From positions 1 to 21,427 of IMG/VR virus record IMGVR_UViG_3300010885_022314: a stretch of 21,427 nt of DNA; one strand, given 5' to 3'. Positions 1 to 21,427 of the stretch are shown in pieces. Source of the DNA: a virus. A program made the translations under genes and the position numbers. Each line of letters opens with the position of its first letter. Positions within the stretch are counted from its first letter, which is position 1. The notes under the pieces were generated by a model. It made no database searches. It was not told the origin of the DNA and worked only from the letters and a program-made list of their open reading frames with translations.

Positions 1-36
1 TCCGCCAGTGCTTCCGCCAGTGCTTCCGCCAGTGCT
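1..36. repeat. 12-base tandem repeat encoding a Gly-Gly-Ser-Thr linker
   Basis: The unit TCCGCCAGTGCT occurs three times in direct succession, and a degraded further partial unit (TCCACC) follows to base 42. Read on the minus strand in the frame of the giant structural protein, each unit encodes Ser-Thr-Gly-Gly in register, giving a flexible GGSTGGSTGG linker. The array touches the window edge, so its full copy number is unknown. The copies are identical at base level, which suggests recent expansion by slippage or an assembly-sensitive spot. Confidence 0.9.
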
Positions 37-3000
37 TCCACCTATTTCCGGGCTATCGTCAATTGAACCAACACCGTATGGGGCAGCAACTACCAAAATG
101 TCAGTATTTTTACGTTTAGTGATAGTTCTTCCAAACTCAAAAATGCTCTGGCTAATATTTGTTGTGGTGTTTACATCATAATTCTTAGTTTTATTATATA
201 CAGCCCAGCGATTACTTCCGTCATTGTCAACCCATAATTTAGAGTTGTAGGGTAATTTTAACAAATGATTATCACTTGGTATTGAGTGGAATGTGTCAAA
301 TCTAGTACTATTAAATTTATATAAAATTCCCGGTGCAGGCAATGTTGCATCTTCAATTGATGCTAGGGTAGATGCCACAGTAAATTGATTTAACATCGGA
401 ATTTCAGCAATCCGATATACTCCATCAACTTGTTCATTAAACTGAGTGACACAAACAAAATCACCAACAGATAGTCTGTGACGTATGTCTGTTGTAAATG
501 TTATAGTGCTAACTGGAGAACTAACATACACCCCAACAACCTGTGGGACAACTTTTTCGTATCTTAAAACATCCCAGTTGCCATTTAACTTAAATCCTAA
601 CCAAATTGTAGTACCTTCTGGCAATGACGCATCAGCAATATCTAATAAACTATTTTCGTTATAGGCTGTAGCAGTCACATCATCAACACGTACATAACCA
701 GCAGTGTTTATTAACATACTTTTTACACTAGATGTGCTGATAAAAACAGAGTTAATGTCAAAATCATCATAGGTAATAGTTAGGTCAGTGGGTAATACAT
801 AATTAGTTAAATCATTGCTAGTTGTAGGAACATCTGTAAGAAATTTAATAATCTGTGGATTTTCTAAAAACGATCCTTCAATTAACGGGAATTCAATTTC
901 TCGGTATGTTGAGTAAGATCCATAATAACCTACTCTAAATGCCCACTCTTCGGTGTAATCGACTTGACCGTGTAGATTATAAGAACTTGGCTTAGCTAGT
1001 TTTGTAATGCTGTTCTTAGTTCCCTTTTCTCTAATATATCCTTGATAGAATTTATATTGAGCAATAGGATCGGTAAAAATATTATCTAAGTTAGGTCGTG
1101 GAGTATAACCTATTAGATGTTGTGCCATTTTTTGCTGGCCAGCATCAAAGTTATCAATATTAAGATTGTAAAAATCTTGGAACTGATTAATCTTATAATC
1201 AAAGTTAGGCAATAAGGACGCCGTGGGTTTTTTGTCTAATAACACCCACCCATCGGCTACATTAAATGTTTCAGATCCGACAATTGTATTTTTAGCGGAA
1301 TAATATTTCCCGTTATAACTAACTATCTGTGAATATATATATTTTTTATAAGGAACCCAAGCTGACAATTCAGCTGTGTCATAAACAAACCCCGGGCTTG
1401 TAAAATCGCCGTCCCAGTTGGCTGTTCTTAAACCTGTTATCTTCATTCTAAATTGACGATACCCAGACTCTGGCTGAAAAATAATATCATTGAATATTGT
1501 GGTATTGTTAAAGACTATACCATGTTCTTTTTGTACAGGCCTTATTTGAGCAAAATAGATACCCTGTGTTGAATTTGATACCGTTATTGTACAAACACCA
1601 TCTAATCTGTTAACATTTATATTCTTTTGAGGATAAGGCGTTCCGTTAGATTGCAATATACTGTAATCATAAAAACTGTCAAATATATTATCAACAACTG
1701 AAAGAGTTGATTTAAATTTTATTTGATCGGCAAAAGGACTTAGTGTTATAATACTGTTGTCTGCCCAATTTTGTGTAGTCCAAAATAAGAATTCTTTTCC
1801 GCTAAAATTCCAATCAAGCATAGATCCTAGATCAGAATTAAATTGATCAAAGATAAACCCTTGGACTTCTAACCAATGGCCGTATCCTATAATAAAATCA
1901 TAAACTTCTTGTATTGTTTTAAACGATGTTCCATAGGAAACTTTAGTGACTTGATTTTCAAAACTAGAAGCTTGTTGTACACTAACTCCGCCTACTAGAG
2001 GAAGTGCAGGTATAGGTGCAAACAATGCAGAGTTAAATTCTTTTTCTGCTCGGTGACTGACTTTTACTCTATAGTATTTAGAGTTATAGGCTACCAATTG
2101 ACCTACTTGATAAAAAATACCAGTAGGAGCAGTTGACGCGGAAGTTGTTTCTGTTTGAGATACTCCGGTTGCATCCGGGGTAGTTCCTAATGACCAATTA
2201 ACATAAGATTCTGAGATACCGCCTACTGTGATTGCAGGAGTTGAGTTATTTCTAATAGGAAGATAAACATTAAAATAAGGATTACTTCTATCATAGCCTT
2301 TGACTACAAATACTCCGTTAGATTTTTGAACGACAATTCCGCTAATACCTAATGATTTAATAGGGCTACTAACATTTAAGAATAATGAATAATCTTCTGG
2401 GGGCATCATTGCCCCAGGATCTATTGATTTAGGGCTGTATGCATCAATAATAACATTCATGTTATTCTTATTAACAAATCCTCCAACTTTGTAGAATAAA
2501 TTAAAATCAAGATATGCAAGGTCATTCTTAAGAAGTTGCACATAATTAGAATTTCGATGTTGACCAACTTCAGAAACAAAAACACTGTAGCCGCTGGTTA
2601 ACGTGCCAGCATCATTGTGTATCGAAATGTTTTTAGGGTTTATAAATGTATGATCAGTGCCATAAGTCCATTGCCCGGCAATGTTTTGAATCACTCTTGA
2701 TGTATCATACATCAAGGAAGAATAAATTGCCGGACGAGTAAGTGCTAATGCTCGTTGTATAGCAAACGGATAATAACTGCTACGTCTCCATGATGTCTCT
2801 ACTGGGCCTTGGTCTCCAAAAGCAAAAGGTTGTCTAATTGTATAAGGAGTAGTAGCTGTGGCCAATAATTGGTCGGGGAGTATTAAATTACCTAATGTAT
2901 CAACAGGTAGGATTGACCCAAGACCCGGTCTTGCATAAAGTTCATTACCTAGACCCATTTCTATGTCATCCCATAAAATATTATTATTAGATGTATAGGG

Positions 3001-6000
3001 TGCAGGGCCGTATGTTGATTCCCAGTCTGCTGGTTTTTCGCTCAACCCTACCATTTCCCAAGGATGTGTATGCGGGCGATCAGTATCATAGAAATATTTG
3101 TAAATGGATCTCCAGTATCCATTTAGGTCTATGCCTAATGTGTTGTTAACACTCCCCGAATAATTCCAAGTAAACGGATTAAACTCGTCAAATTTTTCAT
3201 TGGCGGAATAATCAATGCCAAATATACCTGCCCATTTTATAAAATCTGTTTCTAGAATCTGTGTTATCTCACTTAGTGAATAATCATTATTTCTAAAAGC
3301 TCCCGGAAGGACAGAATTAATATCAAATAATTCTGGTCGATATTTTGATTTAATGTTATTGTATATTCTAGTTTCGAGCTCTAAAATAATATCATCTCTG
3401 TAATCATTAAATGCAACAATTATACTTCCGTCGTGACCTTGTATTACTTTTGTTGGAGTTATATAAGTATCATCAACAAATATAGATGGCACAAATGCAG
3501 GGTACAATCCTAGCTTACTAGGAGTTGGAGGAACATAACATCTTGTATTATCTAAATAATCATTAATAACAATTTGGTCACCGGGCACTAACGGCATTAA
3601 GAATTCTACCATAGACTCGATTGATATGAATTTATAATCTCTACCATTTACAGCCTGTACATTATTAACATAAACTAACACTGAACGCAGATTTAATGTT
3701 GTAAGATCAAATCCAGTAGTTAACGGGTAGAGAACATTTCTAGAATCTGATACTATCCATGTTCTAACAGTCTTATCTTCTCCATAAGCAATCATGTCAG
3801 ACGACGAATACATACTGTTGGTTTTGTTATTAATACTAAGTTCGGTTAACACAGTATCAACAGCACCAACCGGGTCTAATTGATTTGATAGTTGTTCAAT
3901 CTGTTTTAAGAAAGATTTCTTAAATTGATTATAATGATTAGCCACTGTATTTGTAGCATCAATTAAATTATGTTGTTTATTTCCAATAAAAAGAAAAGCA
4001 AATGCTAGCAGACTTGAATGTGAAACTAATTGTGTTCCTGATAGATTAGACAAATCTCTCAAATTATTTAAACCAGGATATGTTCCTAAAAATTCTGATT
4101 TATTTTCAATCATGGTTCTAACATGATCAGTTATTTCAGATTGTGTTAATGTGGGGATACTGCCATTTAACGGATTGTTTGTCAACGATAAAGGTGTTTG
4201 ATAATACCCGGTAGATGTAGGAATTGCCTTTGAATAAATTTTAAACAATACATTTGTAAAAGCAGGCAATGGTGTTGCAAAATTTACAAAATATTTTCCA
4301 AAAGAACTGCTAGTAGTATATTGACTGGGATTTAATACATATCCATTAATAAAAACTTTAAAATCAAAATTTACAATATTTGGATTTTTAATTGCAGTTA
4401 TTTCTAAGTCTGGAGTTAATTCTACAGTAGATTGAAACTGTAGAATAGGAATTTGATAATCACTAGATGCATCCCAAACTGTGGCATATTTGTCTAGTTG
4501 ATTGTATTTTAAATAGGCTGAAGATGTAGGAACAACAGTAAATGATTCATTGTTTGAAACAGTTATTGACTCGGTCATAAAATAGTTATTAAACAAATAA
4601 CTACCTACTCCTACACTGTTTTTATAAGATAACGGAAATCCTAAAACTGGATCATTTGCGCCCGTGCCAACAGCATAACCAAAAATTTTGTTTCCTACAA
4701 AATCAGAAACATAATAATCAAGATTGCTATAACTATTTTTATCACTGTCAAACAAATCAAATAAGGGAGCTTCATTTAAATTAGTGTGTTGTTGAGAAAA
4801 TATCCATTTGTCACCGTTGTAGTGCCAAGAAGAACCTTGATACGTTATTCCCGAAGCTATAATAACTGAAGATTCTGTTGTAGCAGTTTCTGCTATAACT
4901 AATTGTATTTTTGTATAACCAGATGCTTGAGTAAAATTAACTTTATAAATTGTGCCACGGACACCTAAGTGCTTGTCAGCGTTAAAAATTATTCGGTGAC
5001 CTTGCTGTAGCAAAACACCGTCAATATAATAACCTTCTGAACCTTCTATTGTTTGAAAGGCATCAACTAGTTCTGTGTCAATGATATCAACAGCAGGAGC
5101 TCCCATAGTTCCAAAATTATATAATTTTAGATCAGCATTAAATTCTATAATAGGTCGTTGTGCTCTTTTATCAGAAGGGTACACAGGGGTCAATCCGTTA
5201 ATTTCTGAACTAATCCGTATAACTTCTCCATGTACCCATCGGTTATATCTTGTCCAAGGGTTTAAATCTTGACTTGCCCTGTTAATTGTTATATATTCAG
5301 GAAGTATAGGTAATGATTTAAAACTGTCAAACGGGTATTGGTCAAAAGGAGTAGCATCAAAATTTTCATTGAGCTGTGTCTTTGCAATTCCAGTTGCAGA
5401 TAAAAGATCATACTGAACTAACACAATAGAATCACCAACTCCTTCTACAAAGAAATCTTTATTAAGATACGATGAAGGATAAACATCTCCGTCAAATCTA
5501 ACTTTCATGCCGCTGGTCAACGAAGCACTTGCAGTTGTTCCTATATTAGTAATATAAGAAAATGTGTAATTAGTTTGACCAATGATGTTAGTTTCTACAT
5601 TGATAGTTGTGCCGTGCGATCGAATAACAACCAACTCTGGTCCAGTCACTAACCAATAATATTCTTGATAGTTTGTAAACTTGTCCCAACTGATATGAGG
5701 ATTATAAGAATAAACAGGGGACTTATATAATCTATTAAAATTATCAACGATTCCCCCCTGAACACCTATATTGTTGGTCAAGTCATCAAGACCGGTTGCA
5801 GATTGTACATTTTTTAAATTGTCGTAGATAACCAATGCAGGGTCTAATTGATAATCTTTTCTAAGTTCTAATACTTCAGGAATATATACATCGCTGGTAG
5901 ATCGATATCTTGGACTTAACTTACTACCGATAAATCCGCTGATGCGTTCTAGTTGTGCAGGTTGTATTAATTGATCAATTGTAGCAGATAAAAATTTTGA

Positions 6001-6060
6001 ATTTTTATCTGTTTGGTGATATTCTGGTAATAGTTTAATTGAATTAATTTTATTAGCCAT
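1..6060 (-). CDS. Giant virion structural (baseplate/tail fibre-type) protein, C-terminus outside window
   Basis: I read this frame triplet by triplet from the ATG at 6060-6058 to base 1 and found no stop: 2020 codons, C-terminus missing. It starts 2 bases after the gp6 stop, with a GGAAG ribosome binding site six bases upstream that overlaps the end of gp6. The N-terminus (LLPEYHQTDKNSKFL, then DQLIQPAQLERISGFIG), a block near residue 996 (DRPHTHPWEM) and QGHDGSI near the middle resemble, from memory, the very large virion proteins that follow gp6 in marine T4-like phages. T4 has gp7 at this position, but I see no direct similarity to it. Two CBM5/12-like segments lie near residues 1310-1350 and 1566-1608 (YNSKYY and YNGKYY cores). 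An FG-GAP-like segment (FGRT, later VVAAPYG) lies near 1976-1997, followed by a GGST linker from 2007. Probable role: peripheral baseplate or fibre component that may touch host glycans. The structural assignment is fairly safe; the precise role is inferred. Confidence 0.82.
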   Translation of the reverse strand, partial: MANKINSIKLLPEYHQTDKNSKFLSATIDQLIQPAQLERISGFIGSKLSPRYRSTSDVYIPEVLELRKDYQLDPALVIYDNLKNVQSATGLDDLTNNIGVQGGIVDNFNRLYKSPVYSYNPHISWDKFTNYQEYYWLVTGPELVVIRSHGTTINVETNIIGQTNYTFSYITNIGTTASASLTSGMKVRFDGDVYPSSYLNKDFFVEGVGDSIVLVQYDLLSATGIAKTQLNENFDATPFDQYPFDSFKSLPILPEYITINRASQDLNPWTRYNRWVHGEVIRISSEINGLTPVYPSDKRAQRPIIEFNADLKLYNFGTMGAPAVDIIDTELVDAFQTIEGSEGYYIDGVLLQQGHRIIFNADKHLGVRGTIYKVNFTQASGYTKIQLVIAETATTESSVIIASGITYQGSSWHYNGDKWIFSQQHTNLNEAPLFDLFDSDKNSYSNLDYYVSDFVGNKIFGYAVGTGANDPVLGFPLSYKNSVGVGSYLFNNYFMTESITVSNNESFTVVPTSSAYLKYNQLDKYATVWDASSDYQIPILQFQSTVELTPDLEITAIKNPNIVNFDFKVFINGYVLNPSQYTTSSSFGKYFVNFATPLPAFTNVLFKIYSKAIPTSTGYYQTPLSLTNNPLNGSIPTLTQSEITDHVRTMIENKSEFLGTYPGLNNLRDLSNLSGTQLVSHSSLLAFAFLFIGNKQHNLIDATNTVANHYNQFKKSFLKQIEQLSNQLDPVGAVDTVLTELSINNKTNSMYSSSDMIAYGEDKTVRTWIVSDSRNVLYPLTTGFDLTTLNLRSVLVYVNNVQAVNGRDYKFISIESMVEFLMPLVPGDQIVINDYLDNTRCYVPPTPSKLGLYPAFVPSIFVDDTYITPTKVIQGHDGSIIVAFNDYRDDIILELETRIYNNIKSKYRPELFDINSVLPGAFRNNDYSLSEITQILETDFIKWAGIFGIDYSANEKFDEFNPFTWNYSGSVNNTLGIDLNGYWRSIYKYFYDTDRPHTHPWEMVGLSEKPADWESTYGPAPYTSNNNILWDDIEMGLGNELYARPGLGSILPVDTLGNLILPDQLLATATTPYTIRQPFAFGDQGPVETSWRRSSYYPFAIQRALALTRPAIYSSLMYDTSRVIQNIAGQWTYGTDHTFINPKNISIHNDAGTLTSGYSVFVSEVGQHRNSNYVQLLKNDLAYLDFNLFYKVGGFVNKNNMNVIIDAYSPKSIDPGAMMPPEDYSLFLNVSSPIKSLGISGIVVQKSNGVFVVKGYDRSNPYFNVYLPIRNNSTPAITVGGISESYVNWSLGTTPDATGVSQTETTSASTAPTGIFYQVGQLVAYNSKYYRVKVSHRAEKEFNSALFAPIPALPLVGGVSVQQASSFENQVTKVSYGTSFKTIQEVYDFIIGYGHWLEVQGFIFDQFNSDLGSMLDWNFSGKEFLFWTTQNWADNSIITLSPFADQIKFKSTLSVVDNIFDSFYDYSILQSNGTPYPQKNINVNRLDGVCTITVSNSTQGIYFAQIRPVQKEHGIVFNNTTIFNDIIFQPESGYRQFRMKITGLRTANWDGDFTSPGFVYDTAELSAWVPYKKYIYSQIVSYNGKYYSAKNTIVGSETFNVADGWVLLDKKPTASLLPNFDYKINQFQDFYNLNIDNFDAGQQKMAQHLIGYTPRPNLDNIFTDPIAQYKFYQGYIREKGTKNSITKLAKPSSYNLHGQVDYTEEWAFRVGYYGSYSTYREIEFPLIEGSFLENPQIIKFLTDVPTTSNDLTNYVLPTDLTITYDDFDINSVFISTSSVKSMLINTAGYVRVDDVTATAYNENSLLDIADASLPEGTTIWLGFKLNGNWDVLRYEKVVPQVVGVYVSSPVSTITFTTDIRHRLSVGDFVCVTQFNEQVDGVYRIAEIPMLNQFTVASTLASIEDATLPAPGILYKFNSTRFDTFHSIPSDNHLLKLPYNSKLWVDNDGSNRWAVYNKTKNYDVNTTTNISQSIFEFGRTITKRKNTDILVVAAPYGVGSIDDSPEIGGSTGGSTGGSTGG

Positions 6061-6062
6061 GT

Positions 6063-9000
6063 TCAACTTCCGGAGTTAGTTATTATCATTGTAGAATTTA
6101 ATTGACTGGCTGTTATTGCATCAATAATTTCTATATCGTTAACGGTAGCTCCGCTAATAAAAATTTCATTGTTTAAACATGCAACTTCGTAGAGACTGCC
6201 AAAATTATTAATTGTAGGAACTATTACAAAATTTGTAATATAAGGAGTCAACGAATTCATTACATACGTAGACAACTCACTAAAATTAAAAGTTTGACCA
6301 AATTCCCAATTCTCTAAAGAAAAGAATTGGTTAATAGCATTAAAGATCTGTGTTTTTAAATCATTATCGCTGGTAGGAATTGATGCATTCTTTACAGCTT
6401 TAAATGATGCTTGTAAATTTATATCTGCCTTATTTCCAAATAATATCTTATAAGAAACAGGTTGATAAACAATTTCATCACTGATTGTTTTAACTGGTTC
6501 TAATACTGAATCATAGTTTTGTTGCAGACCCTGGCTAGTAGGAGGCAACGGGGCTCGTCCTATTCCAGTAGATAGCCAACTCCTATAAGCAGTATCGTAG
6601 CTAGAAGTTAAAATATAAACATCAATAACATTACTCTTACTAGGATCAATTCTTCTTTCTTGTCCACTATTGTGTACATAGTGGAACTTTAAACCACTTC
6701 TTCCTGGGTAAGCAAAATAGTCTGGTTGATAAACCCAACCATTACCGGTATTTTGATATTGAGTCAATGAATACTGTTTTACTACATTTAATGTTGAATC
6801 AGTAAAATAATATAACTGGCCGTCGACGGGATCAACAACATCAGTGTCGAGAGTATAAGTTGAAATTATCGGAGTTGTTCCAACATCGACTAATTGATAT
6901 CTAATTCCGTCTGACAATTTTTTAAAATAAACAAATTTATTAGATGTTCCTACAATATCTGTAAAGGTGTCAGGATCTGTTATCTGTCCTGAATTATTAT
7001 AATCATAGAAACTAACCATTATCTTAGAAGGGTTTATGTATCCATCCGGCTCGACAATATAGTTGTCTATTTGTAAAGCGTAATCAATTCCTAACCCACT
7101 TGACATGTCACCCGGACTGGTATTAAATGATAAAATGTCAATATTATCTTTTACAACAACATTATTTGTAAAATCATAATTAACATCACTAGGATCAACA
7201 TAAAATGCTGTTTCTTTTTGACTTTCAAAAATATAATCAGTTAATCGATACACTACTTTGTATTTGCTACCTGTCCATGTAAATGCCACTAACCAACTAG
7301 CATCTAAATTGGCGCCTGTATTATTGCCTTGATATTCTAAACTAAAGGGACCTGTTAAATTTAAATTAATGTCAAAAATAACTTTCCATGCTCTAGAAGT
7401 CTTATCAAAACTTAATCCAAAGTTTTTTTGTATAAGGCACAGTTTAACCAATTCACTGGAAAATGCATTAGAGAATACATTATCAAACGCAGGAATTACC
7501 TCAATAGGTTTATACCCAGAAGGGATAATATTGTTTAAAAGAATAGGACCAGTTCCATCATCTAATTTACCTTTTCCCGAATTACTACCGTCTCCAATAA
7601 CCTGTGTCACCGTAGACCAAATAGTTGTTGTGCCGTCTTGAGATATAAATCGAATTAGTGCTTTAGGAGTCACATACAATAAATTGCTTAATGTGAAGGA
7701 TCCTACACTAGGAATTAATGCAACTGACAAACTAGTGCTTTTAAAATATCCTCTTGAACTACCTGACACATTGTTGACCTGTACCCATGATAAACTTAGA
7801 TAAGACAAATCTAGTCTGGGATATTGATCAAGATAAAAAGACCTCATAGAAGGCGATGAAACGATTGGTGCAAGGCGTTGTCTAACCACAGATAATATAT
7901 CGTTATTATTGTTAAATGTAAATTCAAAATTAGACTGGTGTGTATTTTTATATAATATTCCGTCTGCGGCAAAGATGTTTGTTTTACTATATTTTCCACT
8001 AACATCACTTAGTTCAAAATATTTGCTCAACCCGCTGGTCACTCTAGCAACTGACTTAACTTTTAATATGTCAGTTCCAGCTGTCAATGGAGTAATGTTG
8101 TAATCTTCACCTGTGACCATTCTATTTTGTGTATAATAAGCCTGTGGTGCTTTACTTTGTATACTGGCATTTGTTTCTGTAGGAGAACTATTTGAAACTG
8201 TAGTTTGTAAACTTAGAACAATGGTTAATGTTTGGGGACGGCCTGCTTTGTTTGTGTAAGGTATGTCAACAGCTACTCCTGTCATTTGTTCTGGTTTGAT
8301 ATTATATCCCAGCCCATTACTTTGACGATATAATAAATTAAAAGTGCCTTTAGGCAAATTACCAAAACTGCCATCGGCAAAATTTAAATCTATTTGATCT
8401 TGGGCTCGAGTGGTCACACTATAAATGTTTCGTTCATTGACATCAAGACTATTATAGATAACATTATTTCCTACAATGTTAGGAACCTGAGTCCATAACG
8501 TATTATAATTGCCGTTGCTGTCTAATTGCCATAGCCAGACATCAGTGTTATTAATATCAGCGGTGTTAATACCAATTAGTTCATTAGGCACCGGAGTGTT
8601 AATAGCAAAGTTAGAACGTCCTAAATTTCCTTGACGAAAGTGTACAAAAAATCCTGTGTTAGCACTACCAGATCCTTGATTATCATTTTTATAAATTAAA
8701 CTAAAAGCATTTCCAGGGCGAGGTGCTTCTTCGTAAATTCCCGACTTTCCGCTGAATGTTGACGAAACAACTTCAAAATTCATGCTAACACCGTTGATGC
8801 TTTTTGTAAAACTAAACACAGGAACATTAGCAGTAGTGCTGTTAACTCTATATTGTTCAGTTAATATTCCATCAATAGTTTGTCTGCCGTACGGAGTTCC
8901 AAATATATAAGAAGTTGGCATTGCAGAATTTATTATTGTTAAAAACTGATTATACCAATTTGAATTTGTTGGGTCGTTCCATGCTATTGTTGTATTTGAT

Positions 9001-9407
9001 AGATTGCTACCATTTGAATCATAGATATTATCTGTAGTTGCAATAGCTGTTATTTTTAAAAATCCGTTGGCAGGCACATTTCTGCTAGGAGCATAGCTTA
9101 TTAACTGAGCTAGTTGTAGTATACTATCTCGTTTAGAGGCAGTTTCTAAAAAGTTTTCACGAGCATTTAGGTCGATGCGGAAACTTAGATTTTGTCCTAG
9201 GTAGGCAATTAAATCAATAAGAGCAATATACTCGCTACTGTCAACATAATCATTAAAATCTTCAGGGTAGTTTTGTTGTAGATAATTGACCATCACACGG
9301 CGGATAGTTTCAAAATCGTAGCTTTGAAAATCTGCGTTGCGATAGCTTTGGTATATTTTAGTCCAATTTTCTGCTATCAATAATTGTTTAGTTGTTGATG
9401 GGATCAT
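6063..9407 (-). CDS. 6: Baseplate wedge protein gp6
   Basis: 1114 residues. gp6 is the wedge subunit that forms the iris-like ring of the T4 baseplate, acts as a dimer, and binds gp25, gp53 and gp7. The N-terminal segment has the typical gp6 pattern: IRRVMVNYLQ, then EYIALIDLIAYLGQNLSFRID and ARENFLETA within residues 30-90. A central block around residues 340-470 carries DLNFADGSFG and a stretch resembling the gp6/gpJ core (TAGTDILKVKSV). The C-terminal block around 1010-1100 (NLQASFKAVKN, ENWEFGQTFNFSELS) is also gp6-like. T4 gp6 is 660 residues, so about 450 extra residues sit mainly in the middle; I recall enlarged gp6 proteins in marine T4-like phages. It lies 47 bases downstream of gp25 and 2 bases upstream of the giant structural gene. 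No good ribosome binding site precedes the ATG; a late-promoter-like AATAAATA does. Confidence 0.93.
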   Translation of the reverse strand: MIPSTTKQLLIAENWTKIYQSYRNADFQSYDFETIRRVMVNYLQQNYPEDFNDYVDSSEYIALIDLIAYLGQNLSFRIDLNARENFLETASKRDSILQLAQLISYAPSRNVPANGFLKITAIATTDNIYDSNGSNLSNTTIAWNDPTNSNWYNQFLTIINSAMPTSYIFGTPYGRQTIDGILTEQYRVNSTTANVPVFSFTKSINGVSMNFEVVSSTFSGKSGIYEEAPRPGNAFSLIYKNDNQGSGSANTGFFVHFRQGNLGRSNFAINTPVPNELIGINTADINNTDVWLWQLDSNGNYNTLWTQVPNIVGNNVIYNSLDVNERNIYSVTTRAQDQIDLNFADGSFGNLPKGTFNLLYRQSNGLGYNIKPEQMTGVAVDIPYTNKAGRPQTLTIVLSLQTTVSNSSPTETNASIQSKAPQAYYTQNRMVTGEDYNITPLTAGTDILKVKSVARVTSGLSKYFELSDVSGKYSKTNIFAADGILYKNTHQSNFEFTFNNNNDILSVVRQRLAPIVSSPSMRSFYLDQYPRLDLSYLSLSWVQVNNVSGSSRGYFKSTSLSVALIPSVGSFTLSNLLYVTPKALIRFISQDGTTTIWSTVTQVIGDGSNSGKGKLDDGTGPILLNNIIPSGYKPIEVIPAFDNVFSNAFSSELVKLCLIQKNFGLSFDKTSRAWKVIFDINLNLTGPFSLEYQGNNTGANLDASWLVAFTWTGSKYKVVYRLTDYIFESQKETAFYVDPSDVNYDFTNNVVVKDNIDILSFNTSPGDMSSGLGIDYALQIDNYIVEPDGYINPSKIMVSFYDYNNSGQITDPDTFTDIVGTSNKFVYFKKLSDGIRYQLVDVGTTPIISTYTLDTDVVDPVDGQLYYFTDSTLNVVKQYSLTQYQNTGNGWVYQPDYFAYPGRSGLKFHYVHNSGQERRIDPSKSNVIDVYILTSSYDTAYRSWLSTGIGRAPLPPTSQGLQQNYDSVLEPVKTISDEIVYQPVSYKILFGNKADINLQASFKAVKNASIPTSDNDLKTQIFNAINQFFSLENWEFGQTFNFSELSTYVMNSLTPYITNFVIVPTINNFGSLYEVACLNNEIFISGATVNDIEIIDAITASQLNSTMIITNSGS

Positions 9408-9454: not shown

Positions 9455-9892
9455 TTATCCTACAACAAGCCCCACTGATTGATCAAATGATAATTTTAAA
9501 TTTGCCGATTGATCTGTACCTTTTAGGGTCAACGTTAGTTCTAACAGATAACCGCTTTCATATTCGTTCATGTTTATTTGAGTTGGAATTACTCTAGGGT
9601 CGCTATTACATATTCTAGTAATGTCTTCTGACAATGCAGTTCGAACAGCCTCGGTCATAGGCTCCATTAATAAATTCCATATGATGCTTCCAAAATTAGG
9701 ATTCATCACTCTTTCGCCCTTTTTGGTATTGAATTGATTTATAATATCTTGTTTAACTAAATCAAAATCATACAGCCGAGTATCAGCTGTATCAGTATTC
9801 GCAGAGCTGAACCCCCTGTAGAATTGACTTCGTTTTACTACATTCTGTAAAGTAGGTGATGAGTTTCCGATAACAAGATTTTTATATGGCAT
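9455..9892 (-). CDS. 25: Baseplate wedge protein gp25
   Basis: 145 residues, close to the 132 of T4 gp25. gp25 is the small wedge subunit that binds gp6 and gp53 at the inner baseplate and nucleates sheath assembly; type VI secretion (TssE) and P2 gpW-type baseplates have homologues. The family pattern is visible: an N-terminal DFDLVKQDIINQFNTKKGER, then NPNFGSIIWNLLMEPM with the Glu-Pro of the conserved EPR-type core, followed by an amphipathic helix and a C-terminal beta strand pair (YLLELTLTLKG). It sits 20 bases after gp5 and 47 before gp6, as expected for a baseplate module. There is no Shine-Dalgarno sequence in front of the ATG; instead AATAAATA ends five bases upstream. Confidence 0.93.
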   Translation of the reverse strand: MPYKNLVIGNSSPTLQNVVKRSQFYRGFSSANTDTADTRLYDFDLVKQDIINQFNTKKGERVMNPNFGSIIWNLLMEPMTEAVRTALSEDITRICNSDPRVIPTQINMNEYESGYLLELTLTLKGTDQSANLKLSFDQSVGLVVG

Positions 9893-9912: not shown

Positions 9913-12129
9913 TTAACCACCAGTTTTAACAGGGTTTCCACGACTATCTGTTAAAATACTGCCACTGCCTGTACTCACTGTTGCACCTTTAAGTTGGCCA
10001 AAGAAGCATTCGTAGAGTCCTTTTTTAGTAGCATGGATGTCTGGTGTATTAAATCCAACAGCCGCACAGGCCGCTTCAAAATAACTAGGGCTAGATTGGT
10101 CTGCCTTAACTCTGTCTTTCATATAGTAGGCAACAACTTTGGCGCCTATTTCTGGATCTGCTAATAAATCTGGATTGTTTACTAGGTCTGCACCTGCTAG
10201 CTGACCATACCTTGTATAATTTGCTCGACCAGTTAGTTGGACATATCCACGTCCGATATACTTTGCTCCGTCACCGGGTTGTTTATTTCCTAGTTCTTTT
10301 CCTTTAGGTGTATCATAACCATATAAAAATTCTGGCAGTTTATTTCCAGGATTACCTACATAGCTTTGTGCCAAATCCCTGTTGCCTTTAAACTTGCTAG
10401 GAAATACTTGTAAAAGTCGATCGGCTGTGGTGTAATTAAAACTTTCTGTGGCACACTTCCATCTACTTTCGCCTCCGCATATACCTAATATAGCGGCAAT
10501 GGCATTAGGATCTGATATTCCTGCGGCTATACACGCATCTTTAATTAATTGTATGCCGTTGCCTTTAGCACCATTAATCATTTGAGCATACTTAGGATCA
10601 CATGTTCCCGGAGTGACCTCTGGATAATTAGAAGGTGCCTGTACATCTGAATTTGGATTTGGGGCAACGCCTGGTCTATTTTGCAAAGTACTATCGGTAG
10701 CGGCTGTTGTAAATTGAGCAGGATTAATACTTTCATGTTGATCCCAAGGTTCGTGTGTTGGCACACGTTGCATAATTGATTTAATTGACGTAGATTTATA
10801 AAAATTACTATTTGCCCATCCGCTGTTAAATTCTCTGTTAGGTAGATTATAAATTGTTAATCTATCAGGTGTTTCAGAAGACTGGGCGGCTTCTGCGCCA
10901 GGACCATTCATATGTATCTGTCCAGCTGTTTCGTAGTGATTGCCACCGCTGCCAATGTTAGTATTGCCTGCTGAAGTAAGGAACACATTTTGTGCTTCGG
11001 CATGAAGGCCGGCACCTACAGTTAATCTAGAAGTTTGACCTACAGTTTCATGTTTGTCGTTTCTGATAGCAATTTTAGCTTCGTCATCAACAATTAAATA
11101 ATAATGTCCAGTGATGTTAGCTTCAAAATTTCCCTGAGCTCTCATGTGTATATGGCGTCCTGCTTCAAGATGTATATCTCTGTCAGCACGGAAATTAAAA
11201 TCATTCTTAGTATGAATACTAACACTGTCTTCAGCATAGATATCAAGTTTTCCGTTGCTGGTCATTTCAATCCAGGCAGTACCTTTGCTGTTAGCTATGT
11301 AAATTAAATCATGGCTATTATGTAATAATATTTGATGTCCTGTCCTAGTTCTAATACGTACTAATTCATTTTGCCCGTTGAGGTCTCCGTCATCCATGAC
11401 AAATTGCGAGCCACCTAGGCGACTAACGGGCAGTTGCTTAACATCGCCTGCATAACCAATTGTTCCTTGCTTGGCTCCTGCACTGGTATCTACTGGGCCC
11501 GGAGTTGAAATACCAAATACTGAACTTGGGACTTCTCTACGTGCAGAGCTTGATGTCACTCCCCTAACACTATCAAGCAACAATCCCTGTTGCATAAGCC
11601 TATCTGCAAAAGGATGTACAGGTTTGCGTATTGTTTCCGGATTTGGATTTTCTAACTTTTGTGCTCGTTTGTTAAATTCAGAAACTGGAAGATACTCTGT
11701 GCCGTATTTCCTTTTTTGCTCTTCGGTCATATGTGTTTGCCGGCTAGCGGCAATTCCAGGAACCATGTGATTCTGGAATATGTCTTGAACGCACCCAAAC
11801 CAATAACCTTGATTAGGGTCACCGTCAATAAACATGACCATAATTACTGTGCCTACATCGGGTGGGATCATCCACATGCCGTAAGATTTTTGTGCATCGT
11901 CAAACTTACCAGCATCATTGCCTTCGAATCTAACAGAGGTCACTCCATAGAAAGGACTTAGATATTTTACAATATAAGTATCTGATTGATTGGCAATTGA
12001 ATTAGGAATACCTTTAAGCAGAGCAACTTCAAGACTACCCATGTAGGTAGGATCTAGATGGTTAGTCACTTCTGCAAGGAAAGGTCCCGGAGTGGATAAT
12101 TTACTTCGTGTTCGTTTTTCAATAGCCAT
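9913..12129 (-). CDS. 5: Baseplate central spike gp5 with C-terminal GH19-type lysozyme domain
   Basis: 738 residues. gp5 forms the trimeric membrane-piercing needle below the hub. Residues about 12-120 form the OB-fold (GPFLAEVTNHLDPTYMGSLE, later GYWFGCV). Residues about 240-410 are the spike beta-helix, seen as an alternation of short polar and hydrophobic strands (IHLEAGRHIHMRAQGNF). A Pro/Asn/Ser-rich linker (about 460-510) leads to a C-terminal domain, about 515-710, that matches GH19 chitinase/endolysin proteins: GGESRW with the probable catalytic Glu554, TESFNY with Glu562, LLQVFP, and the hallmark GDGAKYIGRGYVQLTGRANY at 619-638. The predicted activity is cleavage of peptidoglycan glycan chains during injection. 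In T4 the lysozyme is a different family (GH24) and sits between the OB-fold and the beta-helix; here it follows the helix. A GGATT-type ribosome binding site precedes the ATG, three bases after the hub gene stop. Confidence 0.92.
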   Translation of the reverse strand: MAIEKRTRSKLSTPGPFLAEVTNHLDPTYMGSLEVALLKGIPNSIANQSDTYIVKYLSPFYGVTSVRFEGNDAGKFDDAQKSYGMWMIPPDVGTVIMVMFIDGDPNQGYWFGCVQDIFQNHMVPGIAASRQTHMTEEQKRKYGTEYLPVSEFNKRAQKLENPNPETIRKPVHPFADRLMQQGLLLDSVRGVTSSSARREVPSSVFGISTPGPVDTSAGAKQGTIGYAGDVKQLPVSRLGGSQFVMDDGDLNGQNELVRIRTRTGHQILLHNSHDLIYIANSKGTAWIEMTSNGKLDIYAEDSVSIHTKNDFNFRADRDIHLEAGRHIHMRAQGNFEANITGHYYLIVDDEAKIAIRNDKHETVGQTSRLTVGAGLHAEAQNVFLTSAGNTNIGSGGNHYETAGQIHMNGPGAEAAQSSETPDRLTIYNLPNREFNSGWANSNFYKSTSIKSIMQRVPTHEPWDQHESINPAQFTTAATDSTLQNRPGVAPNPNSDVQAPSNYPEVTPGTCDPKYAQMINGAKGNGIQLIKDACIAAGISDPNAIAAILGICGGESRWKCATESFNYTTADRLLQVFPSKFKGNRDLAQSYVGNPGNKLPEFLYGYDTPKGKELGNKQPGDGAKYIGRGYVQLTGRANYTRYGQLAGADLVNNPDLLADPEIGAKVVAYYMKDRVKADQSSPSYFEAACAAVGFNTPDIHATKKGLYECFFGQLKGATVSTGSGSILTDSRGNPVKTGG

Positions 12130-12132
12130 ATA

Positions 12133-15100
12133 TTACAATCCAAATAATTTTCGCAGGGGGCTTTTTGCTGACTTTGATCCAAACTGAGCAACTACCGTTG
12201 TAGCTAAACCTATTGCATAGGGATTTCCTAAAATATTACTGATACTAGATTGGTTAGATTCAACCGAACCTGATACTCCAGTTAAACCACCAAGTTGTGT
12301 TTGTGCGGTCTGCAATAGGCCTCGTTGCGACGACGCATCTGCTAGATTAGGTCGACCTAACCCAGGTATACCAGTAGTCATCTGATTCATATTAGTTATG
12401 TTAGGAACACTGCCTTGATAAGCTATATCGGGCACAACATTAGGAGCGGTTGAATACGGATAGGTAGACGGGATGTTTGGATATTTGCTAGAAGGCATAT
12501 TGTTTAGATTAACACCTTGATTAACAGCAGTTTGCAAATTTACATTGCCAGGAATTAATTTACTAATAAGTGAAATATCTTGAAACACCTTACTTTTTAA
12601 CGATGGTGACAATCCTGATAATTGAATAGCGTCAATTCCCAAACTTTTAATAACACCGGTAGGATCTGTCGCTGTCCCATTAACTACACTGGCAATTTTT
12701 CCGGCAGCGTTGATTGCTATACCTGCTGCCGCTTGCTTTTGAATTGGCACTAGTCCACTTAAATTCACAGGAGTACTAAATTGTCGTGATACTCCGAGAT
12801 ACGATGCCGCATCACTAGTTGGTGGTATAGTTGAATATCGTTGGCTTTCTGAAGCTACAGCAGGAGCAGGTGTAGATATTATTCTACTGCCTTCTCGAAT
12901 CAATGTCACAGCCGCTGAGGCATAGGGATTAAATTTAACTCTTGCACCAACACCAATTCCTGAACCTTTAACACCTGTTGCTTTATTAATTGCATTTGCA
13001 CTTGCTTGAGCTATATAATTTGAAGCAATAGCTTGTGTTAATGGAGGAAGGCCTGGAATATTAGAAAGAATCTTATTGGCTTGCCTGCCTGCAAGAACAC
13101 CACCTACCGTTCCTAGAGAAACATTACGGTTAAGAGCATATCCCAATAAGGATATTCCTGTCGGACCCAATTTAGATTGCACAAGGCCCACAATTCCAGA
13201 AGATTGCAAGCGTATTCCTGTTGCTAATTGATTAGCACCTCCGGGAATTGCGCCGCCAAACACAGACGAACCTAAAGTTTGACGTCCAATTCCATTTGTC
13301 ACTGCGCCACTAACTTGAGGGAAAACATTGTCCGAGGTGCCACCTAGTCCGCCAGGTGCCTGTGTAAAATTACTAGCTTCTCCCGGAAGTCCAGGATTGG
13401 GTAAACTTCTTTGTGTTAGTTCTTGTAAATTTGCATCATCGGGTCGAATACCTGCTTGGGCGGCCGCGGCAACTCCTGATGCTTGTAATGCGCCGCCGGC
13501 TTGTTCAGAATCTGCAGAAGTTTCTTGATTAGCAGGATTAGGAGCTTGAACAAACTGTTGTGAAACGTCACTAGGTCTCGTTTGAATATCAAGATATTGT
13601 CCTGGTGTTCGAATAATTTCTAAAGTTTGTTTAAATTGGCCGTCTGCAAATCTACTAGTAGCTTTAATAACTTGGTAAACTCCGCCAAAAGGAACTTTCT
13701 GAGGATCAAAGTACATGAGCCCGCCATCGGGTAAAGTTTTATAATCTATTGGATTATTAAATGTTATTCCTATTAACAATTCTCCCTGAGAAGCATGAGC
13801 TTCACCGTCAATAGTGACTCCTTTCTGAGTGTCGTCAGGTTTTGGATTGTAATTTCCAATTCCACCTGTAATCAAATAAAACGGGTCGCCTATAATTTCT
13901 ATGTCACCTTTGATTAATGCAGTTTTAGAATTTACAACAGAATCGTGTAAACCTTTGGCCATAACAGAATATGCATCTGTTTGACGTTGGCCTGCATTCG
14001 GAGTATTACCTACTCGAGTTTGTGTAAGATCCGGATTAGTTCTAGTCACAGGGGGTGGGGTTTGTGTGGCTTCAATTTTTTCTTTATTGCCCGAATTCAT
14101 TTTAGCACTAGGTGTGCCGCTAGAAGCAGCCGCGTCTCTGCGTTCTGGTTGATCAGAATTGCCGCCGGCTTTACCAACGCCTTCAAAATATAAGTTGTCA
14201 AATAGCAGTTTAAAATTTATTATGTCAACATTTTTTCCGGAATAGATATAATTGTATTCTCTAGTGACCCGTTGTTGTAATTTTTCAACATCGATTGCCA
14301 ACGACTCATACCCTGGAATTTTTGTGTAATGAATCTTATATGGGAATACCACATAGGTAAATTTCTGGAAGGGCTTTTTACTAACTTCATCTACTTCATC
14401 TAAATCAGCGACGTCGATCTTAACCATGAAATATTCTAACATTCCATAATCGTCAATATTTCCCTTAACATCTTTTAATATCTTTTTTAGATATTCACTA
14501 TCTCGAATAACAGCTGATATAATGTCGTGTACATTGGTGTTTTCTGAGAAGTGCACCTGTCCACTGCTGTTAAACGGATTGTATTTTATAGATTCAGGAG
14601 CTTTAGCCTGTTGTTCGGGGCTAGAACTAGGCTGGTCTTTTGTCTTATAGTTGTTTGTTTTTGGTGTGCTGCCAGGATTATCAAATTTATAAACTGCACT
14701 ATCTTTTAAAAGTTCAATAACTGCTGACTCAGCAATTTTGTTTTCAACAGCATAATCTAATCCTTTATCAGGGTCCCACAACGGAAATTTAATTTCATAG
14801 GTATCGTGCTTAGACGAAGGAGTGGCTTTTGATTGTTTGTCTGAGCTTGTTTTTTGCAGATTTAACTTATCCATTAAATTTGTTAAAATTTCTTTAATGG
14901 TCTTTCCGGACATGTTAATTGGTTCTTTAAGGAGGTTTGGAGATCCCATAGCCCTATCTCCAGGAGGAACAGCATCTACTTTATATACAGTGCCTCGCTC
15001 AGTGACTTCAACTTCAACTTTAGTAAAAATAAAAGGAAAATACCTAGAACTTTTATCAATTTTTTTAGGGGTTGGAAGATCAACATCATCGGGGTATCCT

Positions 15101-15717
15101 TGAAATTCCATTAATAGTACAAATTTTGCGTCTGCATAACTGACATATCCTGCAGCCACGGCAGAAGTATGTAGTGCTTCTAAAAATCCGTTAATACTGT
15201 AAGGTTCAATAATTTGAAATTTTATATTTGTTGGCTGACTAACTCCGCCCGACTGACTAGGTGCCAACTGGCTGATGATCTCAACATGGTCAATGTACAT
15301 GTCAAATCTGCCGGGGCTATCTTTATTAAATCCAGAAAGGGTATCAGCCGAATTTTGTGCAGATTTTTTTACCACCGAATCATATTTGTCATATACCTCA
15401 ACTTGAGATTTACGGGTTAAATCTTCGTTAGACATTCCGGCAGTGCCTTTACCCCCTGACTTTAGAATAATTTTTCCTAGGGTACCATTTCTATATGCTT
15501 CGGGGGTTGCGGCAACATCTTTACCCAAGGCCGCAATGGTAAAATTATAAGTGTACGATCTATAAGAATTTAAAACATTTTTGCCTGCCGAACCAGTAAA
15601 CATCGGAGTAGCAGGTTCTCCAGCTTTTTTTCGTTCAACGTTTTCATCAGCTTTGATAGGGTTGTCGGCTTCCTCTCCGTGTATAACATTGCCTTGCTGG
15701 TCATAGTCTATTTCCAT
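12133..15717 (-). CDS. Large baseplate hub-type protein with Ala/Gly-rich C-terminal half
   Basis: 1194 residues. The N-terminal part (about 130-510) looks like a tail hub protein: VEIISQ, FLEALHTSAVAAGYVSYADA, FPFIFTKVEVEVTERGTVYKV, and especially the hub-type REYNYIYSGKNVDIINFKL near 486-504. A second block (about 595-710, IKGDIEIIGDPFYL then GVYQVIKATSRFADG with QTLEIIR) looks like the closing hub domain. A polar Gln/Pro/Asn/Ser linker joins them at about 515-585. From about 715 to the end the sequence becomes low-complexity and rich in Ala, Gly, Ser, Ile and Asn, with hydrophobic stretches and a basic tail (KSPLRKLFGL). Its position immediately upstream of gp5, which sits on the hub in T4, supports a role like gp27. 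Sequence identity to T4 gp27 is not evident. I recall a large protein at this locus in cyanophages sometimes labelled VrlC-like, but cannot confirm it here. A GGGA ribosome binding site lies upstream; one base separates it from gp53. Confidence 0.65.
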   Translation of the reverse strand: MEIDYDQQGNVIHGEEADNPIKADENVERKKAGEPATPMFTGSAGKNVLNSYRSYTYNFTIAALGKDVAATPEAYRNGTLGKIILKSGGKGTAGMSNEDLTRKSQVEVYDKYDSVVKKSAQNSADTLSGFNKDSPGRFDMYIDHVEIISQLAPSQSGGVSQPTNIKFQIIEPYSINGFLEALHTSAVAAGYVSYADAKFVLLMEFQGYPDDVDLPTPKKIDKSSRYFPFIFTKVEVEVTERGTVYKVDAVPPGDRAMGSPNLLKEPINMSGKTIKEILTNLMDKLNLQKTSSDKQSKATPSSKHDTYEIKFPLWDPDKGLDYAVENKIAESAVIELLKDSAVYKFDNPGSTPKTNNYKTKDQPSSSPEQQAKAPESIKYNPFNSSGQVHFSENTNVHDIISAVIRDSEYLKKILKDVKGNIDDYGMLEYFMVKIDVADLDEVDEVSKKPFQKFTYVVFPYKIHYTKIPGYESLAIDVEKLQQRVTREYNYIYSGKNVDIINFKLLFDNLYFEGVGKAGGNSDQPERRDAAASSGTPSAKMNSGNKEKIEATQTPPPVTRTNPDLTQTRVGNTPNAGQRQTDAYSVMAKGLHDSVVNSKTALIKGDIEIIGDPFYLITGGIGNYNPKPDDTQKGVTIDGEAHASQGELLIGITFNNPIDYKTLPDGGLMYFDPQKVPFGGVYQVIKATSRFADGQFKQTLEIIRTPGQYLDIQTRPSDVSQQFVQAPNPANQETSADSEQAGGALQASGVAAAAQAGIRPDDANLQELTQRSLPNPGLPGEASNFTQAPGGLGGTSDNVFPQVSGAVTNGIGRQTLGSSVFGGAIPGGANQLATGIRLQSSGIVGLVQSKLGPTGISLLGYALNRNVSLGTVGGVLAGRQANKILSNIPGLPPLTQAIASNYIAQASANAINKATGVKGSGIGVGARVKFNPYASAAVTLIREGSRIISTPAPAVASESQRYSTIPPTSDAASYLGVSRQFSTPVNLSGLVPIQKQAAAGIAINAAGKIASVVNGTATDPTGVIKSLGIDAIQLSGLSPSLKSKVFQDISLISKLIPGNVNLQTAVNQGVNLNNMPSSKYPNIPSTYPYSTAPNVVPDIAYQGSVPNITNMNQMTTGIPGLGRPNLADASSQRGLLQTAQTQLGGLTGVSGSVESNQSSISNILGNPYAIGLATTVVAQFGSKSAKSPLRKLFGL

Positions 15718-15718
15718 A

Positions 15719-16018
15719 TTATAATCCCAATGCTTTATTAATTGTGGTTATTTTAGGAAGATAAATTTTTACGCCGGATATCATGTCAAATATCGGATCT
15801 GACATAACAGCCGAATTTCTAACAACAAACACCCACCATAGCCCTACATCTCCGTAAATGTCGTGCGCTAGTAGATCTGGTCGATGTTCATAGTTCTTAG
15901 TCACCGTAAACAAAATGTCGTCACTTTGTGCAGGTATGTTTCTATAATTAAGAGTATCTAAATATCCGTTAACTACTTCAGTGGTATAGTAAGGGCTATT
16001 TTTTTTGTATGTTGTCAT
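15719..16018 (-). CDS. 53: Baseplate wedge protein gp53
   Basis: 99 residues from the chosen start (MTTYKKNSPYY). gp53 clamps wedge subunits gp6, gp25 and gp48 together in the T4 baseplate and contains a LysM-like fold. The visible core is DLLAHDIYGDVGLWWVFVVRN followed by DPIFDMISGVKIYLP, the LysM-like pattern seen in gp53 proteins; T4 gp53 is longer (196 residues). The start at 16018 is preferred over an upstream in-frame ATG at 16051 because it has a strong GGAGG nine bases upstream and forms a TAATG one-base overlap with the stop of gp48, whereas the longer form would overlap gp48 by 34 bases and has no better binding site. It lies between gp48 and the hub gene. Confidence 0.85.
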   Translation of the reverse strand: MTTYKKNSPYYTTEVVNGYLDTLNYRNIPAQSDDILFTVTKNYEHRPDLLAHDIYGDVGLWWVFVVRNSAVMSDPIFDMISGVKIYLPKITTINKALGL

Positions 16019-16875
16019 TATAGATAGCCTCCAGTTTTTCCATTTAACCAACCACTAACTGTGTGCTCTAGAATTTCTTGACGACTATACATTGGTAAGC
16101 AAACTACTTGAATTTCCGATAGTGTGGGGACCGAAGTTTTTCCATATATAGAAGCACTTGTTTTACCTATTGTAAAATAATCTACAGTGTTTGGCAAATC
16201 TATTCTAAAACTATTAATAGCAACAGGCACATTTTTAAACATAAAATCTCCCCAAGCATCTAATCTGCAAATAGGAGGAGGGCTTCCGCTGTCAGAATCA
16301 TTACCAAACCGCATTTTTGTCAAGGCTCTTAACAAATGAATAGTGGCCAAATATACTCCAGCATCTTTGTCATTTTGTACAGAAAATTTTCCTGTTATAG
16401 AAATTGTACCAACTGAACTAGACTTGTAAAAATTTTGAGTATAGTTGCTATGTGTTGGAGACTGACTGGTGTAGTCAGCTTTGTATTCTTGACCAATAGA
16501 AGGAGTAAATGGAAAAATTATGCCTCCTAAATTTTGTAATTCATCCTTCAGTCCAGCAGTAAACTTTGTTAGATATGCGGAAGGAACTCTAATTTTAACA
16601 CGAGTATCTTGGCTTGTTGCTTTACTATTCATGCTAGAAATATTAACAGCAGGCGGTGGTGGTGTTTCGGGCATTGCACCTGCAGTGACCTGACCGTCTG
16701 CTGTTCCCATACCACCATTATCCATTCCGGACATGGTCATACTTGGTAAGTCATATCCATCATACCCATTACTGTCTAATATGTCTGTTTGTTCAGCAGG
16801 AGGCCCTAGCACTTCGGCACTGTTATACTTGTTTAGAGTACTTGCATCTGATTTACTAGGATTGGTAGTTGCCAT
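16018..16875 (-). CDS. 48: Baseplate tail tube cap gp48
   Basis: 285 residues. gp48 and its paralogue gp54 sit on the hub and start tail-tube polymerisation. Residues 1-90 are a low-complexity leader rich in Ser, Gly, Met and Pro, including MSGMDNGGMG and a PPPP run. The folded part begins near residue 90 (VKIRVPSAYL) and carries the family core: GGIIFPFTPSIGQEYKADY, HSNYTQNFYKSSSVGTISITG, then HLLRALTKMRFG and PPPICRLDAWGDFMF, ending with VPTLSEIQVVCLPMYSRQE. The mixed beta pattern is that of a tube protein. I prefer gp48 to gp54 because the core resembles marine-phage gp48 as I remember it; gp54 cannot be excluded. It is the first gene of the minus-strand block, with AAGGA six bases before the ATG, and its stop overlaps the gp53 start. 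Confidence 0.82.
   Translation of the reverse strand: MATTNPSKSDASTLNKYNSAEVLGPPAEQTDILDSNGYDGYDLPSMTMSGMDNGGMGTADGQVTAGAMPETPPPPAVNISSMNSKATSQDTRVKIRVPSAYLTKFTAGLKDELQNLGGIIFPFTPSIGQEYKADYTSQSPTHSNYTQNFYKSSSVGTISITGKFSVQNDKDAGVYLATIHLLRALTKMRFGNDSDSGSPPPICRLDAWGDFMFKNVPVAINSFRIDLPNTVDYFTIGKTSASIYGKTSVPTLSEIQVVCLPMYSRQEILEHTVSGWLNGKTGGYL
16028..16032 (-). promoter_or_regulatory. Ribosome binding site deciding the gp53 start (GGAGG)
   Basis: A perfect GGAGG on the minus strand, nine bases before the ATG at 16018-16016 and inside the 3' end of gp48. It is the strongest Shine-Dalgarno sequence noticed in the left block and supports translational coupling of gp53 to gp48. Confidence 0.8.
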
Positions 16876-21184: not shown

Positions 21185-21427
21185 ATGACTTGGACTTATC
21201 AAGGACAAGTTGTAAATGAATTACCTGAGGACTGTGTTGGTTTTGTTTATTGCATAACCAACATAGATTCGGGTCGCCAATACATTGGCAAAAAACTAGC
21301 AAAATTTAGTAAAACGACCTACAAAACTGTAAAGTTGAAGAACGGCACCAAGAAGAAAAAGAAGATTCGAAGCAAAATCGACAGTGATTGGCAGGAGTAT
21401 TACGGGTCCAGTCCTAATTTAACAGCA
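21185..21427 (+). CDS. GIY-YIG (SegE-like) endonuclease domain protein, 3' end outside window
   Basis: The first 81 residues are present and the frame is open to the window edge. The GIY-YIG signature is clear: GFVYCITN with FVY at 20-22 in the GIY position, and QYIGKK with Tyr33-Ile34-Gly35 eleven residues later. A very basic stretch follows (residues 52-62, with five consecutive lysines), then DSDWQEYYGS, which resembles the conserved WxxYYGS of SegE-type GIY-YIG proteins of T-even and marine phages. GIY-YIG enzymes make single- or double-strand DNA cuts; Seg proteins act as free-standing homing endonucleases in T4. The start lies three bases after the histone-like gene stop. No clear ribosome binding site is adjacent, so translation may be coupled. 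The downstream nuclease half, with the catalytic Glu, cannot be checked. Confidence 0.8.
   Translation, partial: MTWTYQGQVVNELPEDCVGFVYCITNIDSGRQYIGKKLAKFSKTTYKTVKLKNGTKKKKKIRSKIDSDWQEYYGSSPNLTA

Follow-up and report, generated by a model that had tools for sequence, protein, structure and literature searches.

Where on the needle of a contractile phage can the wall-cutting enzyme sit, and how fixed is its family? In T4 gp5 the tail lysozyme is a GH24 enzyme. The window (the whole stretch of DNA analyzed, a 21 kb IMG/VR fragment of 21,427 nucleotides) encodes a gp5-like spike with a GH19 domain at its C-terminus. We consider it highly probable that this spike belongs to a jumbo T4-like phage with a contractile tail, and that it carries a GH19 peptidoglycan hydrolase on the needle's far end, as an exchangeable module beyond the needle.

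Domain organization of the spike

The region 9913–12129 encodes a gp5-like spike built of an OB fold, a gp5/VgrG-type helix, a linker and a GH19 domain, with the following features.

9913–12129 (−): gp5-like central spike ORF, 738 aa (ORF list; PHROG 13211; 127 other distinct complete relatives among the matches listed)
11788–12081 (−): OB-fold part, residues about 17–114 (PF04717 at 79–114; model strands 17–113; PHROG 13211 from residue 16)
10840–11367 (−): gp5/VgrG-type helical needle, residues about 255–430 (PF10106, PF22178; VgrG 9jg8 by sequence; T4 gp5 1k28 and VgrG by fold)
10732–10755 (−): HEPWDQHE motif at the needle end, residues 459–466 (spike alignment; kept with or without an enzyme)
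10597–10731 (−): Pro/Asn-rich variable linker, residues 467–511 (sequence; identity drop between spikes of unlike enzyme)
9988–10596 (−): GH19 domain, residues 512–714 (Pfam, PHROG, PDB sequence, model and fold matches)
10468–10470 (−): E554, predicted catalytic acid (56 of 56 type-A spikes)
10444–10446 (−): E562, predicted catalytic base (54 of 56 type-A spikes)
10216–10254 (−): GRGYVQLTGRANY block, residues 626–638 (sequence and type-A comparison)
9916–9969 (−): C-terminal tail GSGSILTDSRGNPVKTGG, with a motif common to spikes with different enzymes (motif search)

PHROG 13211 (baseplate hub and tail lysozyme) matched spike residues 16–428 with an E value of 1.8e-44. The Pfam OB model PF04717 scored 19.2 on the window spike, below its cut-off of 23.8, and several relatives scored above the cut-off. 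The helix models PF10106 and PF22178 were sub-cut-off in the window spike; the helix (residues about 254–416) gave fold matches to gp5 and VgrG with a model of the monomer only. This AlphaFold model, obtained from an alignment of 38 spikes, had a mean pLDDT of 72. Residues 512–714 were all-helical (pLDDT ~90), and the tail (residues 715–738) had low confidence. The N-terminal half was poor, as may be expected when a single chain of an intertwined trimer is modelled. In Foldseek searches the C-terminal domain matched GH19 endolysins (7r6s, 4ok7, 8p8e and 9eoi, probability 1.00) and the remainder of the spike matched VgrG and T4 gp5. The top matches among viral models came from uncultured phages and were gp5/VgrG OB-fold proteins, some about as long as the window spike.

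The GH19 domain call is more than chance. PF00182 (GH19) matched residues 620–669 with 34.8 bits (cut-off 25.5), PHROG 181 (endolysin) matched residues 527–671 (E 1.9e-33), and the C-terminal part matched 7r6s over residues 527–675 (E 1e-16), followed by further GH19 endolysins, in a PDB sequence search. A sequence-only reading of the window had proposed a GH19 enzyme at residues ~515–710, C-terminal to the needle after a Pro-rich linker. The family is upheld by Pfam, PHROG, PDB and fold matches, and the placement is confirmed by profiles, PDB matches and the model. The range given for it, 9913–10600, does cover the GH19 domain and the tail, but the gene runs to 12129. Its view that both the enzyme family and the place in the chain differ from T4 gp5 is supported, since GH24 was not found and GH19 is C-terminal. 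A free endolysin was ruled out: the GH19 domain lies in the same ORF as the OB fold and the helix, inside a baseplate cluster.

The window spike contains E554 (in GGESRW), E562 (in TESFNY) and GRGYVQLTGRANY at residues 626–638, where that reading had put them. The GH19 hallmark, a GRG.(V/I)Q.TG..NY block and two catalytic Glu, is thus present, and the predicted acid and base roles of E554 and E562 follow from family membership. Among the type-A GH19 spikes, window included, E554 is conserved in all 56 and E562 in 54. The second Glu is missing in the GH19-A spike L040 and lies one position earlier in L122. The near-invariance of both residues suggests that the window domain is likely an active enzyme, and the loss in L040 that some modules may be inactive.

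Genomic context and phage group

Three baseplate genes were assigned near the spike by Pfam/PHROG-type profile matches.

6063–9407: gp6
9455–9892: gp25
15719–16051: gp53

Divergent genes were also present nearby, namely an ORF in the gp55 position and gp47-like and gp46-like genes. The order gp55-gp47-gp46 / gp53 / hub / spike / gp25 / gp6 matches that of PA5oct, and the jumbo phages RaK2, GAP32 and Atu_ph07 keep much of it. Some IMG/VR relatives span 326–353 kb. The gene order common to jumbo phages and the size of these relatives place the window in a jumbo T4-related group. The sequence-only reading had pointed to marine T4-like phages for a survey of gp5 homologues; by gene order the group is jumbo and PA5oct/RaK2-like, and not one of ordinary marine T4-like phages. 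According to the PA5oct record, its spike and most of the neighbouring products were detected by mass spectrometry.

Directly upstream of the spike lies a 1194-aa ORF (12133–15717, −) that has relatives in many loci. A low-confidence model of its residues 1–560 (pLDDT 58) gave no more than weak hits, most of them VgrG/gp27-type hub proteins. The ORF is probably a gp27-like hub whose C-terminal part is long and of low complexity. Downstream of gp6, a 2022-aa ORF (1–6066, −) runs off the window; it has a weak CBM5/12 match and occupies the position of a large structural protein. At the other end (21185–21427, +) a SegE-like GIY-YIG endonuclease gene begins and is cut by the window end. Among genome contigs, three from MAGs matched, each over the hub part alone, and none of the three offered a reliable clue to the host.

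Tip types and the junction past the needle

Relatives were collected in three IMG/VR scans with at least about 600 matches each, of which the best 80 per scan were kept. The sample comprised 128 distinct complete spikes (127 relatives and the window) from the loci kept among the matches listed, and profiles of the part past the needle were used to assign each spike a type. With proportions biased by query choice and best-80 selection, the 128 listed spikes included GH19-A (56), GH19-B (7), transglycosylase-like (29, in two subtypes of 23 and 6), GH104 (11) and VanY-like (1) types, and 24 had no enzyme. A GH104 representative matched lambda lysozyme 1am7 (E 5e-27) and a transglycosylase-like one matched 9udh (E 2e-32); the VanY-like match was weak (E 5e-5). 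OB-helix-GH19 was the commonest single architecture in this query-biased sample (63 of 128 among the matches listed). The order read from the window alone is real; its novelty is not supported, as the order is common here.

Other tip arrangements were seen. L049:5561–8137 and L052:6001–8598, two close relatives, have a C-terminal GDSL-like domain (weak by Pfam) behind different muralytic domains. The Atu_ph07 spike (L083:4905–7502) ends in a trypsin-like peptidase (Trypsin_2, E 6e-17), an unusual tip module.

In 22 of the 24 enzyme-free spikes gp25 lies directly downstream with no gene between, and no separate enzyme gene adjoining the spike was found among the 24. Roughly one in five sampled relatives is without a tip enzyme, suggesting that it is not essential in general. 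PAAR proteins, the candidates for a separate tip protein, were detected by Pfam in 3 of 28 records (none of the three GH19-bearing, and most of the 28 incomplete fragments) and in 2 of 30 records when a relative was used as query, one of them weak (E 0.009). PA5oct, whose spike is enzyme-free, encodes a PAAR protein (L237:1432–2451) with a C-terminal part that is M15-peptidase-like by eye. Transfer of the enzyme to this protein was considered and dropped, as Pfam and PDB gave no support.

We show that all tip variants (two GH19 types, transglycosylase, GH104, VanY-like, extra GDSL, or nothing) join just past HEPWxxHE. By alignment, HEPWDQHE is the last conserved point ahead of the exchangeable segment. 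Identity is high up to this motif and collapses in the linker when the types differ, as is clear for the pair L102/L115. Spike pairs of unlike type share 63–73% identity before the needle end vs. mostly 22–36% past the linker, and the same-type pair formed by the window and L002 shares 76 and 73%, respectively.

The segment past the needle is an exchangeable module that changed type repeatedly at one junction. On the hub tree (residues 1–440) at least 24 type changes were counted, compared with an average of 63.5 for shuffled labels, so the types cluster yet change often. Three type changes could equal one gain and two losses. A single GH19-A clade was rejected in an AU test (p-AU 0.0016) on a set thinned to 84 rows, a test made after the tree had been inspected. 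The window falls in a well-supported group of four spikes with three types: GH19-A (window and L002), GH19-B (L049) and transglycosylase-like (L052). Among GH19-A spikes, distances between hubs correlate with those between enzymes (r 0.78), suggesting that descent is mostly joint with exchange superimposed. Recombination is the most likely route of exchange.

A second sequence often follows the enzyme. A search with a loose pattern found GGI.TDS.GNP(V/I)KTG in GH19-A (50 of 56), GH19-B (4 of 7) and transglycosylase-like (10 of 29) spikes; the GH104 and enzyme-free spikes all lacked it. The 48 IMG/VR stretches with the DNA form of the motif were mostly such enzyme-bearing spikes. In L243 and L285, however, it lies between the OB fold and GH19 of T4-ordered gp5 proteins, and it may be a linker sequence travelling with the module. 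A broader proposal, which we put forward tentatively and hold somewhat less probable than its negation, is that in this widespread group of jumbo phages the needle end is a dedicated docking site prone to recombination: HEPWxxHE and often GGI.TDS.GNPVKTG would bracket swapped non-homologous wall enzymes, and the tip would track the host wall as receptor-binding tips track the surface.

Possible action of the tip and comparison with known systems

The variety of tips bears on what the GH19 domain does. It might have lost its cutting activity and serve as a structural tip or bind the wall or a glycan, as the enzyme-free relatives and L040 could suggest. We regard this as unlikely: both Glu are kept in the proportions given above, the GRG..Q.TG..NY block is kept as well, and the position is also taken by other families of hydrolases, a pattern that fits selection for cutting over one binding surface. 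It appears about equally unlikely that the domain cuts a polymer other than peptidoglycan, such as capsule, slime or a chitin-like glycan. GH19 includes chitinases and the Pfam model is a chitinase model, but the best matches by PHROG, sequence and fold are phage endolysins, and the replacement modules are peptidoglycan enzymes. A fusion of two genes by assembly or frame error, conceivable for a single 21 kb fragment record, was rejected as next to impossible, because 55 other distinct complete proteins from many samples have the same uninterrupted order.

For a GH19 peptidoglycan hydrolase on the needle's far end, the following course can be proposed. The OB fold and needle would be the fixed part, and GH19 would hang from the needle tip on a flexible linker. 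Homology with T4 gp5 predicts a trimeric spike located where the tail tube ends, which would put three GH19 domains past the needle, near its tip. Sheath contraction would push the needle across the outer membrane; carried into the periplasm with the tip, the GH19 domains would cut glycan strands ahead of the tube so that it could pass. Related phages would exchange tip enzymes by recombination and retain those that suit the host wall; we infer this selection, as we do the place and time of peptidoglycan cleavage.

Enzymes at the tip end are known from related giant phages, and what is added here is the exchangeable segment past the needle. The lysozyme of T4 gp5 lies between the OB fold and the helix (restated in PMC3622015), whereas that of the window is C-terminal; the OB fold, a helix predicted to form a trimer and a tail lysozyme are in common, a likeness found by fold. 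An enzyme after the helix is not a new arrangement, having been described in RaK2 (2013; PMC3622015) and CBB (2017; PMC5259590). The RaK2-like gp5 proteins (RaK2 gp078, CBB_240 and GAP32_234) have a homologous OB fold and helix (26–29% identity) and a C-terminal lysozyme as here, but they are about 890 aa long and end in M23 plus GH24 (confirmed in the RaK2 and GAP32 spikes), whereas the window spike has GH19 only. The closest cultured hub is that of the PA5oct-like spikes (Arenbergviridae), with 35% identity over residues 15–467 and the same gene order; that spike, of 477 aa, stops right after the needle and has no enzyme. No single match in INPHARED covered 80% of the window spike.

GH19 itself occurs in the gp5 of Synechococcus phage BUCT-ZZ01 (ON615601), but in T4-like order (OB 31–99, GH19 262–316, helix about 560–660, and a weak terminal M15). 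The S-N03 cyanophage GH19 protein (933 aa), a hit of the fold search, was dropped as a gp5 candidate, having no OB fold or helix by Pfam or PHROGs. The GH19 phage endolysins (SPN1S 4ok7, KTN6 gp46 8p8e, and 9eoi) have a similar catalytic domain, but they are free endolysins and not spike parts. Mosaic domain architectures are generally known among phage tail and lysis proteins (PMC10684548), and the divergence of pelagimyophage gp5 has been ascribed to host walls (PMC7029224). Among the open-licence papers searched, none that we found describes a gp5 spike ending in GH19 or frequent exchange of the needle-end enzyme.

The wall-cutting tool of a contractile-phage needle can thus sit beyond the needle and change families many times at a fixed joint. 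The relatives offer a natural set of interchangeable tips for weighing the tip enzyme against receptor-binding proteins as a limit on host range. Exchangeable needle tips also parallel the evolved VgrG spikes of type VI secretion. In VgrG3cp (PMC9927483), for example, a gp5-like spike likewise has a muralytic domain fused to its end and works alike, but VgrG3cp is a type VI secretion effector that comes with an immunity protein and has a pesticin-like domain; it is not a phage tail protein.
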